In this document: piece by piece, positions 8,240 through 27,170 of the stretch
Layout: every line of letters begins with the position of its first letter
Numbering within the stretch: position 1 is the first letter of the stretch
NCBI RefSeq assembly: GCF_022808815.1
Contig: NZ_JAKZLC010000004.1
Span: 62,001-126,000 of the forward strand
DNA: 64,000 nt
From: Geothrix paludis
GTDB lineage: Bacteria; Acidobacteriota; Holophagae; Holophagales; Holophagaceae
Direction: 5' to 3'
Program-made: the position numbers and the translations under genes
The notes under the pieces: model-generated
What the model was told of the DNA's origin: nothing
Databases searched by the model: none
The model's input: the letters and a program-made list of their open reading frames with translations, nothing else

Positions 8240-9580
8240 TCACGCTCTCCGCATCATCTGCGCGATGAGGAAGGCCATCTCCAGGCTCTGGCTGCGGTTG
8301 AGGCGGGGGTCGCAGCCGCTCTTGTAGGCGCGCTCCAGGTCGGCCTCGACGAGGCCCTCGACGCCGCCGGTGCACTCGGTGACGGGCTCGCCGGTCAGCT
8401 CGAAGTGGACGGCGCGGAGCCTCGAGCCGTGGGCGCGGTGGAGGTCGGCCACTTCACGCAGTTCCTGGAGGATGTCGCCGAAGTCCCTCGTCTTGAGCCC
8501 GCCCTTGGTCGTGCGCCCGTTGCCGTGCATGGGATCGCAGCTCCACAGCACGGGATGGCCCTCAGCCCGGGCGGCCTCGATAAGCGCGGGGAGGACGCGA
8601 CCCGCCTTCCCCGCCCCGAAGCGCGTGATGAGGGTGAGGCGGCCCGGCTGGCGCTGGGGATCCAGCTTGGACAGCACCTGTCGCAGCTGCTCCGACGTCA
8701 TGGAGGCGCCCACCTTCAGGCCGATGGGGTTGGCGAGACCGCGGATGTACTCCAGGTGGGCGCCGTCGAGCTGGCGGGTGCGCTCGCCGATCCAGAGGAA
8801 GTGCGCGCCCAGGTTGTAGTGGGCCCCCTTCTCGGGCACCCAGCGGGTGAGCGCCGTCTCGAAGGGCAGGTGCAGGGCCTCGTGGCTGGTGAACAGCTCA
8901 CCGGTGCGCAGGTGCTCGGGCAGGCCGCCCAGGCACTTCACGAAGTCGAGGGAGGCCCGCACCTGCTCCAGCGTCTCCAGGTAGTGGCCCGCGTCCTCGC
9001 GGCTCCAGGGCAGGTCCCAGTGCTCGGGGTTGTGCAGGTCCGCGAAGCCGCCGTCCACCAGGGCCCGCAGGTGGTTCAGGGTGGCGGCGGCGCGGTGGTA
9101 GGCCTCCAGCAGACGCCGGGGATCGGCTTCGCGCTGGGCCGGGTCGAGCCCGTTGATGAGGTCACCGCGGTAGACGGGCACCCGCTGGCCGTCCACCATC
9201 TCCGTGTCCCCGCTGCGAGGCTTGGCGTACTGGCCCGCGATGCGGCCCAGGTGGACCACACCCGTGCGGCCGCCGTGCGTGATGAGCACGGACATCTGGA
9301 GCAGCACGCGCAGCTTGTCCTGGATGAGACTTCCGCGGCAGTCCGCGAAGGCCTCGGCACAGTCGCCGCCCTGGAGGAGGAAGCGCCGGCCCGCGGCGGC
9401 CTCGGCGATGAGGCTCCGGAGGTGGTCCACCTCCTCGGCCACCACCAGGGGCGGCAGCTCCCGCAGTTCCACCAGGGCAGTCTCGACGGCGGCGGCATCG
9501 CGGTAGTGCGGCTGCTGGGCCGCGGGCAGGCCGCGCCAGGAATCGGGTGTCCAGTCCTTCGCCATCGTCGTCGCAGTCAT
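8240..9580 (-). CDS. aroG: Class II 3-deoxy-7-phosphoheptulonate synthase (DAHP synthase)
   Basis: A 446-residue plant-type DAHP synthase, condensing phosphoenolpyruvate and erythrose 4-phosphate in the first step of the shikimate pathway. Diagnostic segments include WTPDSWRGLPAAQQP at the N-terminus, FLLQGGDCAEAF, the metal and PEP site VRASLDFVKCLGG, and the C-terminal ECTGG-x-DL region followed by YKSGCDPRLN. Its start overlaps the end of pheA by four bases (ATGA), so it is translationally coupled to pheA. It is the second gene of an aromatic operon controlled by the phenylalanine attenuator at 10694-10812. Confidence 0.95.
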   Translation of the reverse strand: MTATTMAKDWTPDSWRGLPAAQQPHYRDAAAVETALVELRELPPLVVAEEVDHLRSLIAEAAAGRRFLLQGGDCAEAFADCRGSLIQDKLRVLLQMSVLITHGGRTGVVHLGRIAGQYAKPRSGDTEMVDGQRVPVYRGDLINGLDPAQREADPRRLLEAYHRAAATLNHLRALVDGGFADLHNPEHWDLPWSREDAGHYLETLEQVRASLDFVKCLGGLPEHLRTGELFTSHEALHLPFETALTRWVPEKGAHYNLGAHFLWIGERTRQLDGAHLEYIRGLANPIGLKVGASMTSEQLRQVLSKLDPQRQPGRLTLITRFGAGKAGRVLPALIEAARAEGHPVLWSCDPMHGNGRTTKGGLKTRDFGDILQELREVADLHRAHGSRLRAVHFELTGEPVTECTGGVEGLVEADLERAYKSGCDPRLNRSQSLEMAFLIAQMMRRA

Positions 9581-10674
9581 CGCACCACCTCCAGCGCCCG
9601 GGGGTAGCTGCCCAGAACCTTCAGCGAGACGCAGACACCCCGCAGCTCCTCCAGGGCCTCAGCCAGGGCCGGGTCTGCCGCGTGGCCCTCCACGTCGAGG
9701 AAGAAGACGTATTCCCAGAGCTTGCGCCGGGTGGGCCGGCTCTGGATGCGGCTGAGGTTCAGGCCCCGCCGGGCCAGGGGCTCCAGCAGGCGCAGCAGGG
9801 CGCCGGGGCCGTCCTGGGCCATGGCCAGCAGGGTGGTGCGGTCGCGGCCCGTGGGCTCGGCGGACTTGGGCCCCAGCACCAAGAAGCGCGTGGCATTGGC
9901 GGCCAAGTCCTGGATCTTCGTCTCGGCCACGCGGAGGCCGAAGAGGTCCGCGGCCAGCTCGGAGGCCACGGCGGCCCCCTCGGCGTCCTCCCGGGCCAGG
10001 CGGGCGGCCTCCGAGGTGGAGGGGGCCTCGATGCGGTCCGCTCCTGGAAGGTGGGCCTCCAGCCAGCGGCGGCACTGGCCCAGAGCCTGGGGATGGGAGT
10101 AGACCCGGCGCACGCCGCCCAGGTCGAGGCCGGGCCGCAGCAGCAGGGCCTGGTCCACGGGCAGGAGGATCTCCGCGCAGATGGCCAGGGAGCTGTCGAG
10201 GAAGGCATCGAGCGTGGAGTCCACCGAGCCCTCAGTGGCGTTCTCCACGGGCACCACGCCGTAGTCGGCGCGCTGGCGCTCCACGGCCTGGAAAACAGCC
10301 TGGATGGTGCCCTGGGGCAGGGCCTGGCCTGAGCCGCCGAACTGGTGCCGGGCCGCCAGGTGGGTGAAGGTGCCTTCGGGCCCCAGGAAGGCCACCCGCA
10401 GCGGCTTCTCCAGGCTCAGGCAGGCGCTCATGATCTCCTGGAAGACCGTGCGCACCGCCGGGGCCGGGAAGGGTCCGGCGCTGGCGGCCTCCAGGCGGGC
10501 GAGCACTTCCCGCTCCCGGGCCGGGGCGTGGAAGGGGGCCTCGGGCGCGGCGGCGGCCTTGAGGCGGCCCACCTCCGCGGCCAGGGCCGCCCGGCGGTTC
10601 AGCAGGGCCAGCACCTGATCGTCCACGGCGTCGATGGCCTGGCGGAGGCCGGGGAGGGACGGGATCTCGGTCAT
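9577..10674 (-). CDS. pheA: Bifunctional chorismate mutase / prephenate dehydratase (P-protein)
   Basis: A 365-residue P-protein making phenylpyruvate from chorismate. Residues 1-90 form the chorismate mutase helix bundle (LRQAIDAVDDQVLALLNRRAALAAEV). Residues about 93-275 form prephenate dehydratase, with FLGPEGTFTHLAA, the ENATEGSV motif and the catalytic-site ATRFLVLG. The last 80 residues are an ACT domain with QSRPTRRKLWEYVFF, the phenylalanine feedback site. It is preceded by a leader peptide rich in Phe codons and a terminator, so both feedback inhibition and attenuation are expected. DAHP synthase follows with a four-base overlap. Confidence 0.97.
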   Translation of the reverse strand: MTEIPSLPGLRQAIDAVDDQVLALLNRRAALAAEVGRLKAAAAPEAPFHAPAREREVLARLEAASAGPFPAPAVRTVFQEIMSACLSLEKPLRVAFLGPEGTFTHLAARHQFGGSGQALPQGTIQAVFQAVERQRADYGVVPVENATEGSVDSTLDAFLDSSLAICAEILLPVDQALLLRPGLDLGGVRRVYSHPQALGQCRRWLEAHLPGADRIEAPSTSEAARLAREDAEGAAVASELAADLFGLRVAETKIQDLAANATRFLVLGPKSAEPTGRDRTTLLAMAQDGPGALLRLLEPLARRGLNLSRIQSRPTRRKLWEYVFFLDVEGHAADPALAEALEELRGVCVSLKVLGSYPRALEVVR

Positions 10675-10693
10675 GGTGGACTCCTGGAATGCG

Positions 10694-10722
10694 AAAACCC
10701 CCGAGCCTTGCGGTCTCGGGGG
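10694..10722 (-). terminator. Attenuator terminator of the pheA-aroG operon
   Basis: On the minus strand, CCCCCGAG (10715-10722) pairs with CTCGGGGG (10698-10705) in an eight-base stem followed by four T. It lies between the leader peptide stop and the pheA start, so it would end transcription before pheA unless the antiterminator forms. Confidence 0.85.
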
Positions 10723-10779
10723 CGATGGTTCGAAGCGGTTCCGGTTCTAGACGCCGCCTACCCTCGCACCCGAGGTGCG
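10715..10779 (-). promoter_or_regulatory. Pause hairpin and alternative antiterminator of the phe leader
   Basis: Minus-strand CGCACCTCGGGTGCG (10779-10765) forms a perfect six-base-pair hairpin directly after the Phe codons. Its 3' part CTCGGGTGCG (10774-10765) can instead pair with CGCCCCCGAG (10724-10715), the 5' arm of the terminator, at nine of ten positions. The two pairings are mutually exclusive, as in classical amino-acid attenuators. A ribosome stalled on the Phe codons would block the first hairpin and favour antitermination. Confidence 0.75.
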
Positions 10780-10812
10780 AAAGCTAAAGAAGAAGGCGCG
10801 GGAGGCGGTCAT
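10747..10812 (-). CDS. pheL: Phenylalanine leader peptide
   Basis: A 21-residue open frame begins MTASRA, continues with FFFSF (codons TTC TTC TTT AGC TTT) and ends ARVGGV before a TAG. Four Phe in five residues within a tiny frame upstream of pheA is the signature of a translated attenuation leader. It is too short to be a product with a function of its own. A weak AAGGTG precedes the ATG. The stop codon lies about 25 bases before the terminator stem, as needed for ribosome-position sensing. Confidence 0.8.
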   Translation of the reverse strand: MTASRAFFFSFRTSGARVGGV

Positions 10813-10859
10813 CACGGTCTAGACACCTTGCCGGAAAAGACCTTGGCCTGCAAGGAGAT

Positions 10860-11306
10860 TCAGGCCCCGAGGCAGGCCACGACCTCCGCCAGGCAGGCCG
10901 CCCACACCTCATCGGGGGTCTCGTCCAGGAAGAACTCCACGGCATGGCCGGCGGGTCGGGCCTCGGGGTGCTGCGACCAGGCCTCGAAGAGGGCGTCCAG
11001 CGGGGCCGCGTCCAGGGCATTGCGGCGGAGCTTGTGGGATTTCCGCGTGCGGTCGGGATCGGGCCCGCGCAGGCAGACGCCCTCCCGGCGGGTGGCCACG
11101 AAGGTGAAGGCCTGCACCCACTTGCCGTCCATGAGCTGGTTGAAGTGGAAGAAGGCCCCGTGGTGGCTGCGGGAGTAGTCGAACACCCGGTGCTTCCCCC
11201 GCCACTTGGCCACCCAGAGAGTGAGGATGGCGGCCAGCCGGGCCCGCTCCGAGGCATGCTTCAGGCAGCTCTGGGCGTAGGGCAGGAATTCGTCGAGCAG
11301 GTCCAC
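10860..11306 (-). CDS. Hypothetical protein
   Basis: A 148-residue soluble protein, not recognised. The start is a GTG at 11306 with GGAGG a few bases upstream. It is rich in Trp, His and charged residues, with the segment KHRVFDYSRSHHGAFFHFNQLMDG in the middle, an Arg/Lys patch at RTRKSHKLRRN, and a C-terminal helix ending CLGA. No signal peptide or membrane segment is seen. It lies immediately upstream of the phe leader on the same strand, 47 bases away, so transcription from here could run into the attenuator. Confidence 0.6.
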   Translation of the reverse strand: MDLLDEFLPYAQSCLKHASERARLAAILTLWVAKWRGKHRVFDYSRSHHGAFFHFNQLMDGKWVQAFTFVATRREGVCLRGPDPDRTRKSHKLRRNALDAAPLDALFEAWSQHPEARPAGHAVEFFLDETPDEVWAACLAEVVACLGA

Positions 11307-26673: not shown

Positions 26674-26714
26674 ACGACCCGTGACAATGAGCCGGCCCGG
26701 AAAGTCCCTGCATG

Positions 26715-26744
26715 AAAAAGCCCCCGGGTCGCTCCCGGGGGCTT
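26715..26744 (-). terminator. Rho-independent terminator of the HhH gene
   Basis: AAGCCCCCGGG pairs with TCCCGGGGGCTT around a short loop, with a T5 run on the minus strand just past the stem. It lies 20 bases after the HhH gene stop. Confidence 0.88.
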
Positions 26745-26765
26745 GGTTAGCGGCGGTGCCTGGAT

Positions 26766-27170
26766 CTAGCGGATCTGGGGTTTCGCCCCGGGCTGCCGGG
26801 CCACGATGCGCTTCCGGAGGGTCTGGAAGAGGTCGTTCGGCAGGATGTTCTTCGTCACCAGGAAGGCCTTGGAGAGGTAGGGACGGCCCGCGATGATCTT
26901 GTCAGCATAGGCATCCGTGATGCCCGGAAGGGTCTTCAGCTGGTCCTTGGTGGCGCTGTTGATGTCGATGGCCTTCGCATCCGCTTCGGCCTTGGCCTTG
27001 ACCCGCGCCTTGACCTTGGCCGCATTGGCTTTGGTCTTGGCTTCCGTGGCGCCCTTGGCGCTCTTGGATGCGGCCTTTCGCGGCGGCTCGGTCTCCTGGG
27101 CCCGCAGGGAGGTGGCGGGAGCCAGCAGGGCCAGGGCGACCAGGGCCATCTTCAGGAGGGGAGTCTTCAT
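26766..27170 (-). CDS. Exported ComEA-like helix-hairpin-helix protein
   Basis: A 134-residue protein with a cleavable signal peptide (residues 1-24, ending LRAQ), a Lys/Ala-rich helical stretch (about 30-65, repeated K-A-K units) and a helix-hairpin-helix domain. The domain reads IDINSATKDQLKTLPGITDAYADKII and a second motif at YLSKAFLVTKNILP. Such domains bind DNA without sequence preference, as in the competence protein ComEA. A periplasmic DNA-binding or uptake role is inferred; no other competence gene is nearby. It sits between two cytochrome genes but has its own terminator, so a link to electron transfer is not shown. Confidence 0.8.
   Translation of the reverse strand: MKTPLLKMALVALALLAPATSLRAQETEPPRKAASKSAKGATEAKTKANAAKVKARVKAKAEADAKAIDINSATKDQLKTLPGITDAYADKIIAGRPYLSKAFLVTKNILPNDLFQTLRKRIVARQPGAKPQIR

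Follow-up and report, generated by a model that had tools for sequence, protein, structure and literature searches.

A phenylalanine-rich leader before pheA-aroG in Geothrix as a very probable transcription attenuator, and leaders of similar build in Holophagaceae

Results

Layout of the pheA-aroG locus

The window, i.e. the whole analysed stretch of 64,000 nucleotides of Geothrix paludis DNA, carries pheA and aroG on its minus strand, to which all window coordinates given here refer. The product of pheA (9577..10674) is a bifunctional chorismate mutase/prephenate dehydratase with an ACT domain (TIGR01807, PF00800, PF01842), and that of aroG (8240..9580) is a class II DAHP synthase (PF01474, E 4.6e-176; TIGR01358, 574.5 bits, under the curated cutoff of 614.7). 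The start of aroG overlaps the stop of pheA by 4 nt (ATGA), and pheA is preceded by the Shine-Dalgarno sequence AGGAG (10681..10685). Farther upstream, a co-directional ORF of 148 codons ends at 10860.

Between this ORF and pheA lies a short reading frame of 21 codons, MTASRAFFFSFRTSGARVGGV (10747..10812), running from ATG at 10812 to TAG at 10747. Its peptide contains four Phe residues, so that a short ORF rich in codons for the product stands directly before pheA. A first-pass annotation of this DNA had placed a complete phenylalanine attenuator at 10694-10812, and all of its parts were indeed found there, on the minus strand. The FFFSF motif lies at 10794-10780 and is encoded by TTC TTC TTT AGC TTT (10780..10794), the last Phe codon being kept in 29/29 aligned relatives. 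The perfect hairpin reported right behind these codons has the core CGCACC-TCG-GGTGCG (10779-10765) and, with a flanking U-A pair, measures 17 nt; this hairpin 1:2, UCGCACC-UCG-GGUGCGA (10764..10780), follows the last Phe codon directly. An intrinsic terminator with a U-tract precedes pheA, the first structural gene, and the T4 ascribed to it is likewise in place: GCCCCCGAG-ACCGCAAGG-CUCGGGGG plus UUUU (10694..10723), with a stem of 8 bp + 2 bp, reads GCCCCCGAG...CTCGGGGGTTTT in the DNA (10723-10694).

Sequence comparison further delimits an antiterminator. Its strand 2, GGGUGCGAGGG (10761..10771), pairs with strand 3, CCAUCGCCCCC (10718..10728), which overlaps the 5' arm of the terminator. 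Pairing at nine of ten positions, as counted in the first pass, holds for CTCGGGTGCG against CGCCCCCGAG, but the helix is longer than was then supposed, covering 9 to 11 positions and enclosing a nested stem. The latter, predicted at 58-62/79-83, joins GGCGG (10754..10758) to CCGCU (10734..10738) and is compatible with the antiterminator. Antiterminator and terminator are, by sequence and folding, mutually exclusive through their common strand, and hairpin 1:2 competes at the Phe codons.

An alignment block upstream of the leader suggests a promoter consisting of a -35-like element, TTGCAG (10848..10853), whose TTG is kept in all 29 aligned relatives, and a -10-like element, CAAGGT (10825..10830), 17 nt 3' of it. 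A generic promoter scan of the window did not flag it because it departs from the E. coli consensus. The -10-like box stands 12 nt from the leader ATG in the window (about 10-13 nt in relatives) and no Shine-Dalgarno sequence precedes this ATG; the leader ORF is therefore probably translated from an RNA with only 5-8 nt of 5' end. Such a start, with transcription predicted to begin 5-8 nt before the ATG, is called near-leaderless here. As to codon choice, TTT accounts for 66 of the 118 leader Phe codons (56%) versus 1 of 134 (<1%) in seven window genes. Rarity of the codon is not the sole explanation, since the third T of the last codon is also needed in the hairpin as part of a U-A pair.

Conservation among Geothrix and other Holophagaceae

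In 37 congeneric genomes searched for pheA, the gene proved full in 29 and fragmented in 1 more. Besides the window's own, the full genes are 84-97% identical to the window pheA, and all 29 upstream regions hold an ORF of 21-22 codons ending in FRTxGAxxxGx-stop or close to it. Leaders of these relatives contain 3-5 Phe codons, with a few changes of Phe to Tyr; a single Phe codon abuts the hairpin in every species and the distance from the last Phe codon to the stop is identical in all 29. Every relative with the element has an open, Phe-rich frame, and indels are only of 3 nt. Over the 129 columns of the upstream alignment, mean identity amounts to 84%. Absence of the leader frame or stems in relatives had been named beforehand as the outcome that would speak against attenuation, and both are conserved in every relative with pheA. 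Preservation of the frame, the Phe codons and all helices thus supports the first-pass reading of ribosome-mediated phenylalanine attenuation.

A covariance model built on the 29 relatives (R1) matches at E<1e-29 in 38 of 47 Geothrix genomes. The window element itself combines a match to the model with a Phe-rich ORF and a cognate gene downstream. Among congeneric genomes the element is found in 30/30 with pheA vs 1/7 without a pheA match (Fisher p = 3e-6). Evidently, it tracks pheA rather than the upstream gene. The hairpin core also occurs in named records of Geothrix fermentans, oryzisoli, terrae, campi and fuzhouensis and in Holophagaceae MAGs. Within the phylum sample, strong R1 matches are confined to the family Holophagaceae, where diverged copies in other genera keep the same plan before pheA or aroG. 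Judged by its conservation the element stands above chance; the case is a comparative one, the single-sequence fold of the region being unremarkable (z -1.19).

Several candidates were rejected. Five records from outside Holophagaceae with the bare 21-nt hairpin pattern (L040, L045, L056, L058, L059) have no leader. A weak R1 match at window positions 26713-26852 (minus strand) is an ordinary gene-end terminator, that in G024:C73 a tRNA-like region and a repeat, and those in G087, G088, G080:C31, G121 and G344 were attributed to chance or ordinary terminators.

Pairing and covariation of the alternative helices

On 28 distinct sequences, hairpin 1:2 pairs in 99.6% of cells and the terminator in 99.3%, while the antiterminator pairs in 96% vs 42-60% for slid controls. 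In this set hairpin 1:2 shows one two-sided change and several one-sided changes that keep pairing. Compensatory changes recorded for it overall comprise U-A to C-G and A-U, and A-U to G-C. Antiterminator pairing survives one-sided changes at three positions.

The strict set of 29 sequences holds no two-sided changes in the antiterminator, and one genome, G067, has two of them, A-U to G-C and G-C to A-U, with both strands anchored without gaps. Compensatory changes in both alternative stems, which the first-pass annotation had put forward as something to look for, are therefore present in both helices, a few in number. Outside the terminator stem, CC-n-UCG is near-invariant and comprises exactly the bases pairing with strand 2, whereas the mismatched n varies. 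With 43 sequences including other genera, two-sided changes in the R1 structure affect five pairs and 0/500 shuffles reach the observed covariation, figures which lean towards R1 because the alignment had itself been fitted to R1.

As to the U-tract, 20/29 relatives have UUUU and 9/29 an interrupted form (UUUC, CUUU, CUUC). The tract is only U4, and in these nine termination may be inefficient or need help. A generic terminator scan of the window missed the terminator, since its criterion is 5 T in 8 and only 4 U are present.

Folding energetics

Calculated folding energies are -9.9 kcal/mol for hairpin 1:2, -21.8 for the terminator and -29.4 for the antiterminator with its nested stem. The two states are therefore near balance, at -29.4 kcal/mol for the antiterminator vs about -31.7 for hairpin plus terminator. 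A single-sequence minimum free energy pairing of the leader start GACCGCCUCCC with GAGGGUAGGCGGC was set aside, as most relatives do not keep it.

Ribosome states were modelled in each relative by removing or masking the covered part, at an assumed footprint of 9-14 nt, in RNA cut before the 3' arm of the terminator. With the A site on the earlier Phe codons, the mean P(2:3) was about 0.8-0.9; on the last Phe codon it varied over 0.4-0.9 with the footprint assumed. A ribosome at the stop codon covers strand 2, and P(2:3) is 0. At equilibrium the terminator is preferred in full-length RNA whatever the ribosome state (mean P about 0.8-1.0), and the decision must therefore be kinetic, as in known attenuators. 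Truncated window RNA free of ribosomes favours 2:3 over 1:2 (0.94 vs 0.05), which makes co-transcriptional folding decisive for basal control.

Similar leaders for other amino acids

Weak R1 matches in the same genomes revealed attenuator-like leaders that share this build but serve other amino acids. The asnB gene (asparagine synthase B, PRK09431) is preceded by an Asn-rich leader such as MTFPSLRTNRNFNNPLPRANRAWAGEGLT or MTLSPLRPNRNTNRLPRANRAWAGKGLS, after which come the hairpin CGCGCG-rAT-CGCGCG and then a terminator with the pattern CCCCGATTCGC..GCGGATCGGGG and a U-tract. It was present in 30/30 upstream regions read, including that of the window's genome (G000:C1:523839-523969, L080; relatives L100-L129), and looks, from its sequence, like an asparagine attenuator. 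G076, without an asnB match, has an Asn-rich leader before an asparagine synthetase A-like gene scoring below the curated cut-off.

Pro leaders precede proC (HPRPSTxxAGG or close to it in 18/29 regions) and proB (NPRPSxPxxG or similar in 23/27), in both cases with a hairpin and a terminator. The window's genome carries both, the proB leader on G000:C1 upstream of 1206923 (L189) and the proC leader on G000:C7 upstream of 55678 (L137). Only 7 nt separate a TATA-like box from the start of the proC leader, which is therefore probably leaderless. A His leader, CHHARHHVAH, stands before hisG in genus g21 (G086:C360:30308-30432, L094); only this genus has one directly upstream of hisG, Geothrix having none there, and a weak R1 match also occurs before hisG in G083 (G083:C50:23070-23187). 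An Ile leader with three Ile, MYCCPVFISMISIPHGG, and a terminator precede ilvA in one genome only (G004:C3:9301-9413, L081).

Taken as one build, these elements would consist of a near-leaderless leader ORF, a hairpin after the regulatory codons and a C-rich terminator. It seems rather likely to us that Holophagaceae use leader-peptide attenuation of this build as a general means of sensing amino acids (Phe, Asn, Pro, His and Ile). The targets would be pheA and aroG, asnB (or, in a genome lacking it, the asparagine synthetase A-like gene), proB and proC, hisG, and ilvA, and Asn and Pro would extend the classical attenuation of biosynthetic genes by two new specificities.

Discussion

A probable switch at the Phe codons

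We consider it highly probable that the element is a ribosome-mediated leader-peptide transcription attenuator responding to charged tRNA-Phe, with pheA and, in the window, also the overlapping aroG under its control. Transcription would start just 5' of the leader ATG. When phenylalanine is scarce, the ribosome would stall at the Phe codons beside hairpin 1:2 and cover its 5' arm; strand 2, thus left free, would pair with strand 3 to give the antiterminator with its nested stem, and RNA polymerase would read through into pheA-aroG. With plentiful phenylalanine the ribosome would proceed to the stop codon, 10 codons beyond the last Phe codon, hairpin 1:2 would re-form behind it and strand 3 would be left for the terminator, ending transcription 20 nt before pheA. 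The switch thus very probably shuts off transcription under ample phenylalanine.

Might the terminated leader RNA or its peptide also act in trans, besides its role in cis, like rnTrpL/peTrpL of Sinorhizobium meliloti? That precedent (PMC7298713), together with the small predicted near-leaderless mRNA of about 115-125 nt and the conserved peptide C-terminus FRTxGARxxGV, lends the idea some appeal. We regard it as unlikely, the conserved C-terminus being explicable by the RNA strands that it encodes.

A leader ORF could instead control translation of pheA, by translational attenuation or coupling, and the weak U-tract, interrupted in nine relatives, would fit such a role. Yet the AGGAG of pheA is outside all three helices, the distance of about 70 nt from leader stop to pheA start is too long for coupling, and the U-tract is of proper form in most relatives, as it is in the sister leaders for Asn and Pro. 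Control of translation in place of transcription is accordingly quite improbable.

Still less credit is due to sensing by anything but the ribosome, whether through tRNA in the manner of a T-box or through a metabolite or protein. Letters of the hairpin are conserved beyond coding need, TTTAGCTTTCGCACC being near-invariant in most species, as such a sensor might demand. However, no T-box, riboswitch or other Rfam family was matched at its curated cut-off, nor any plausible one up to E 10, indels in the leader are of 3 nt only and so preserve the frame, and in several independent leaders the enriched amino acid matches the downstream gene.

That hairpin and U-tract, the usual mark of a gene end, merely terminate the 148-codon ORF ending at 10860, with the Phe-rich ORF as a chance frame, is hardly conceivable, since upstream sequence varies across relatives (L002, L003, L013, L019), with unrelated DNA 5' of the promoter block in several species, and yet the element remains with pheA, a promoter-like block separates it from the upstream gene, and a plain terminator would need neither conserved Phe codons and frame nor hairpin 1:2.

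Comparison with known systems

Ribosome-mediated transcription attenuation is itself a textbook mechanism. In E. coli and other gammaproteobacteria, the pheL-pheA and pheM-pheST attenuators (Rfam Phe_leader) possess a Phe-rich leader peptide and three alternative helices, and in pheL-pheA, whose terminator lies just before pheA, logic and target enzyme are the same as in the Geothrix element. Unlike the gammaproteobacterial Phe_leader, the Geothrix leader has a near-leaderless ORF without a Shine-Dalgarno sequence and its regulatory codons come before hairpin 1:2; its operon, unlike pheL-pheA, includes a class II DAHP synthase. The window gave no match to the Rfam Phe_leader model at its gathering score, and eight leader loci gave none up to E 10. 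The T-box covariance model likewise matched neither the window nor, up to E 10, these eight loci, and no other Rfam family or riboswitch reached its curated cut-off or looked plausible within that E limit. The bacterial attenuation survey of Lopatovskaya et al. (2010) may contain related predictions.

Outside the gammaproteobacteria, a likeness in leader start is offered by the trpL-trpE(G) attenuator of Sinorhizobium meliloti, where rnTrpL begins with the ATG of trpL (PMC7298713). Its leader ORF too is at or near the RNA 5' end, whereas its codons are Trp codons, its genes are others and its phylum is unrelated. In Actinobacteria, trp, trpS, leuS, ilvB and cys leader-peptide attenuators are described in the part of the source considered here (PMC1262725); they share the leader ORF with regulatory codons and include classical cases with antiterminator and terminator outside proteobacteria, but belong to another phylum, and that part reports no Phe, Asn or Pro attenuators. 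Leader peptides of hisS/hisZ in Firmicutes, found by scanning for premature terminators, are, like the Geothrix element, a leader peptide system outside Proteobacteria and Actinobacteria (PMC2965389). The paper on these Firmicutes leaders, a survey of 2010, lists almost no Acidobacteriota attenuators with an associated function (PMC2965389).

We found no report of attenuation in Geothrix or Acidobacteriota in the open-access literature. As far as seen, lineage, gene set and near-leaderless start are new, and the element places a textbook leader-peptide switch in Acidobacteriota with strong comparative support. Several carriers are named Geothrix isolates, so the prediction is open to direct testing. 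The Asn and Pro leaders are a more surprising lead than the Phe element. The generally known attenuation repertoire comprises trp, phe, his, leu, ilv and thr; should the sister leaders be borne out, asparagine and proline would join the amino acids sensed in this way and the repertoire would be wider. A search of the open-access literature turned up no attenuator of a biosynthetic gene that responds to Asn or Pro, and within that scope both specificities look new.

Genes under the probable switch and related observations

The claim that type II DAHP synthase is under the phenylalanine switch needs some narrowing. In Geothrix aroG follows pheA in 23/28 informative relatives and is not adjacent in five that keep the leader; the switch therefore belongs to pheA first. 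Genus g20 has a similarly built Phe leader (MTPPCTFFYYFGFRTPVRVGGVLR, MNILRTSFYYFGFRTSARVGGGLN) immediately upstream of a class II DAHP synthase gene. Comparison thus supports control of DAHP synthase by linkage in Geothrix and directly in g20. Geothrix also encodes a second class II DAHP synthase at another locus, 66% identical to that of the window; in the window's genome (G000:C3:40734-42050) this gene has no leader ORF of the Phe kind.

Four congeneric genomes, G009, G019 (99% complete), G017 and G065, are without the Phe leader, and the first three of these, G009, G019 and G017, have no full pheA match either. All four are possibly phenylalanine auxotrophs or have replaced the enzyme. Conversely, G021 carries a Phe leader (G021:C61:8427-8544, L086) in a genome without a pheA match; soon after the stop codon its sequence breaks off into an apparent insertion-sequence end, where the contig ends. 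In the window's genome, a further chorismate-mutase-like domain is encoded in a 357-codon frame at G000:C3:176367.
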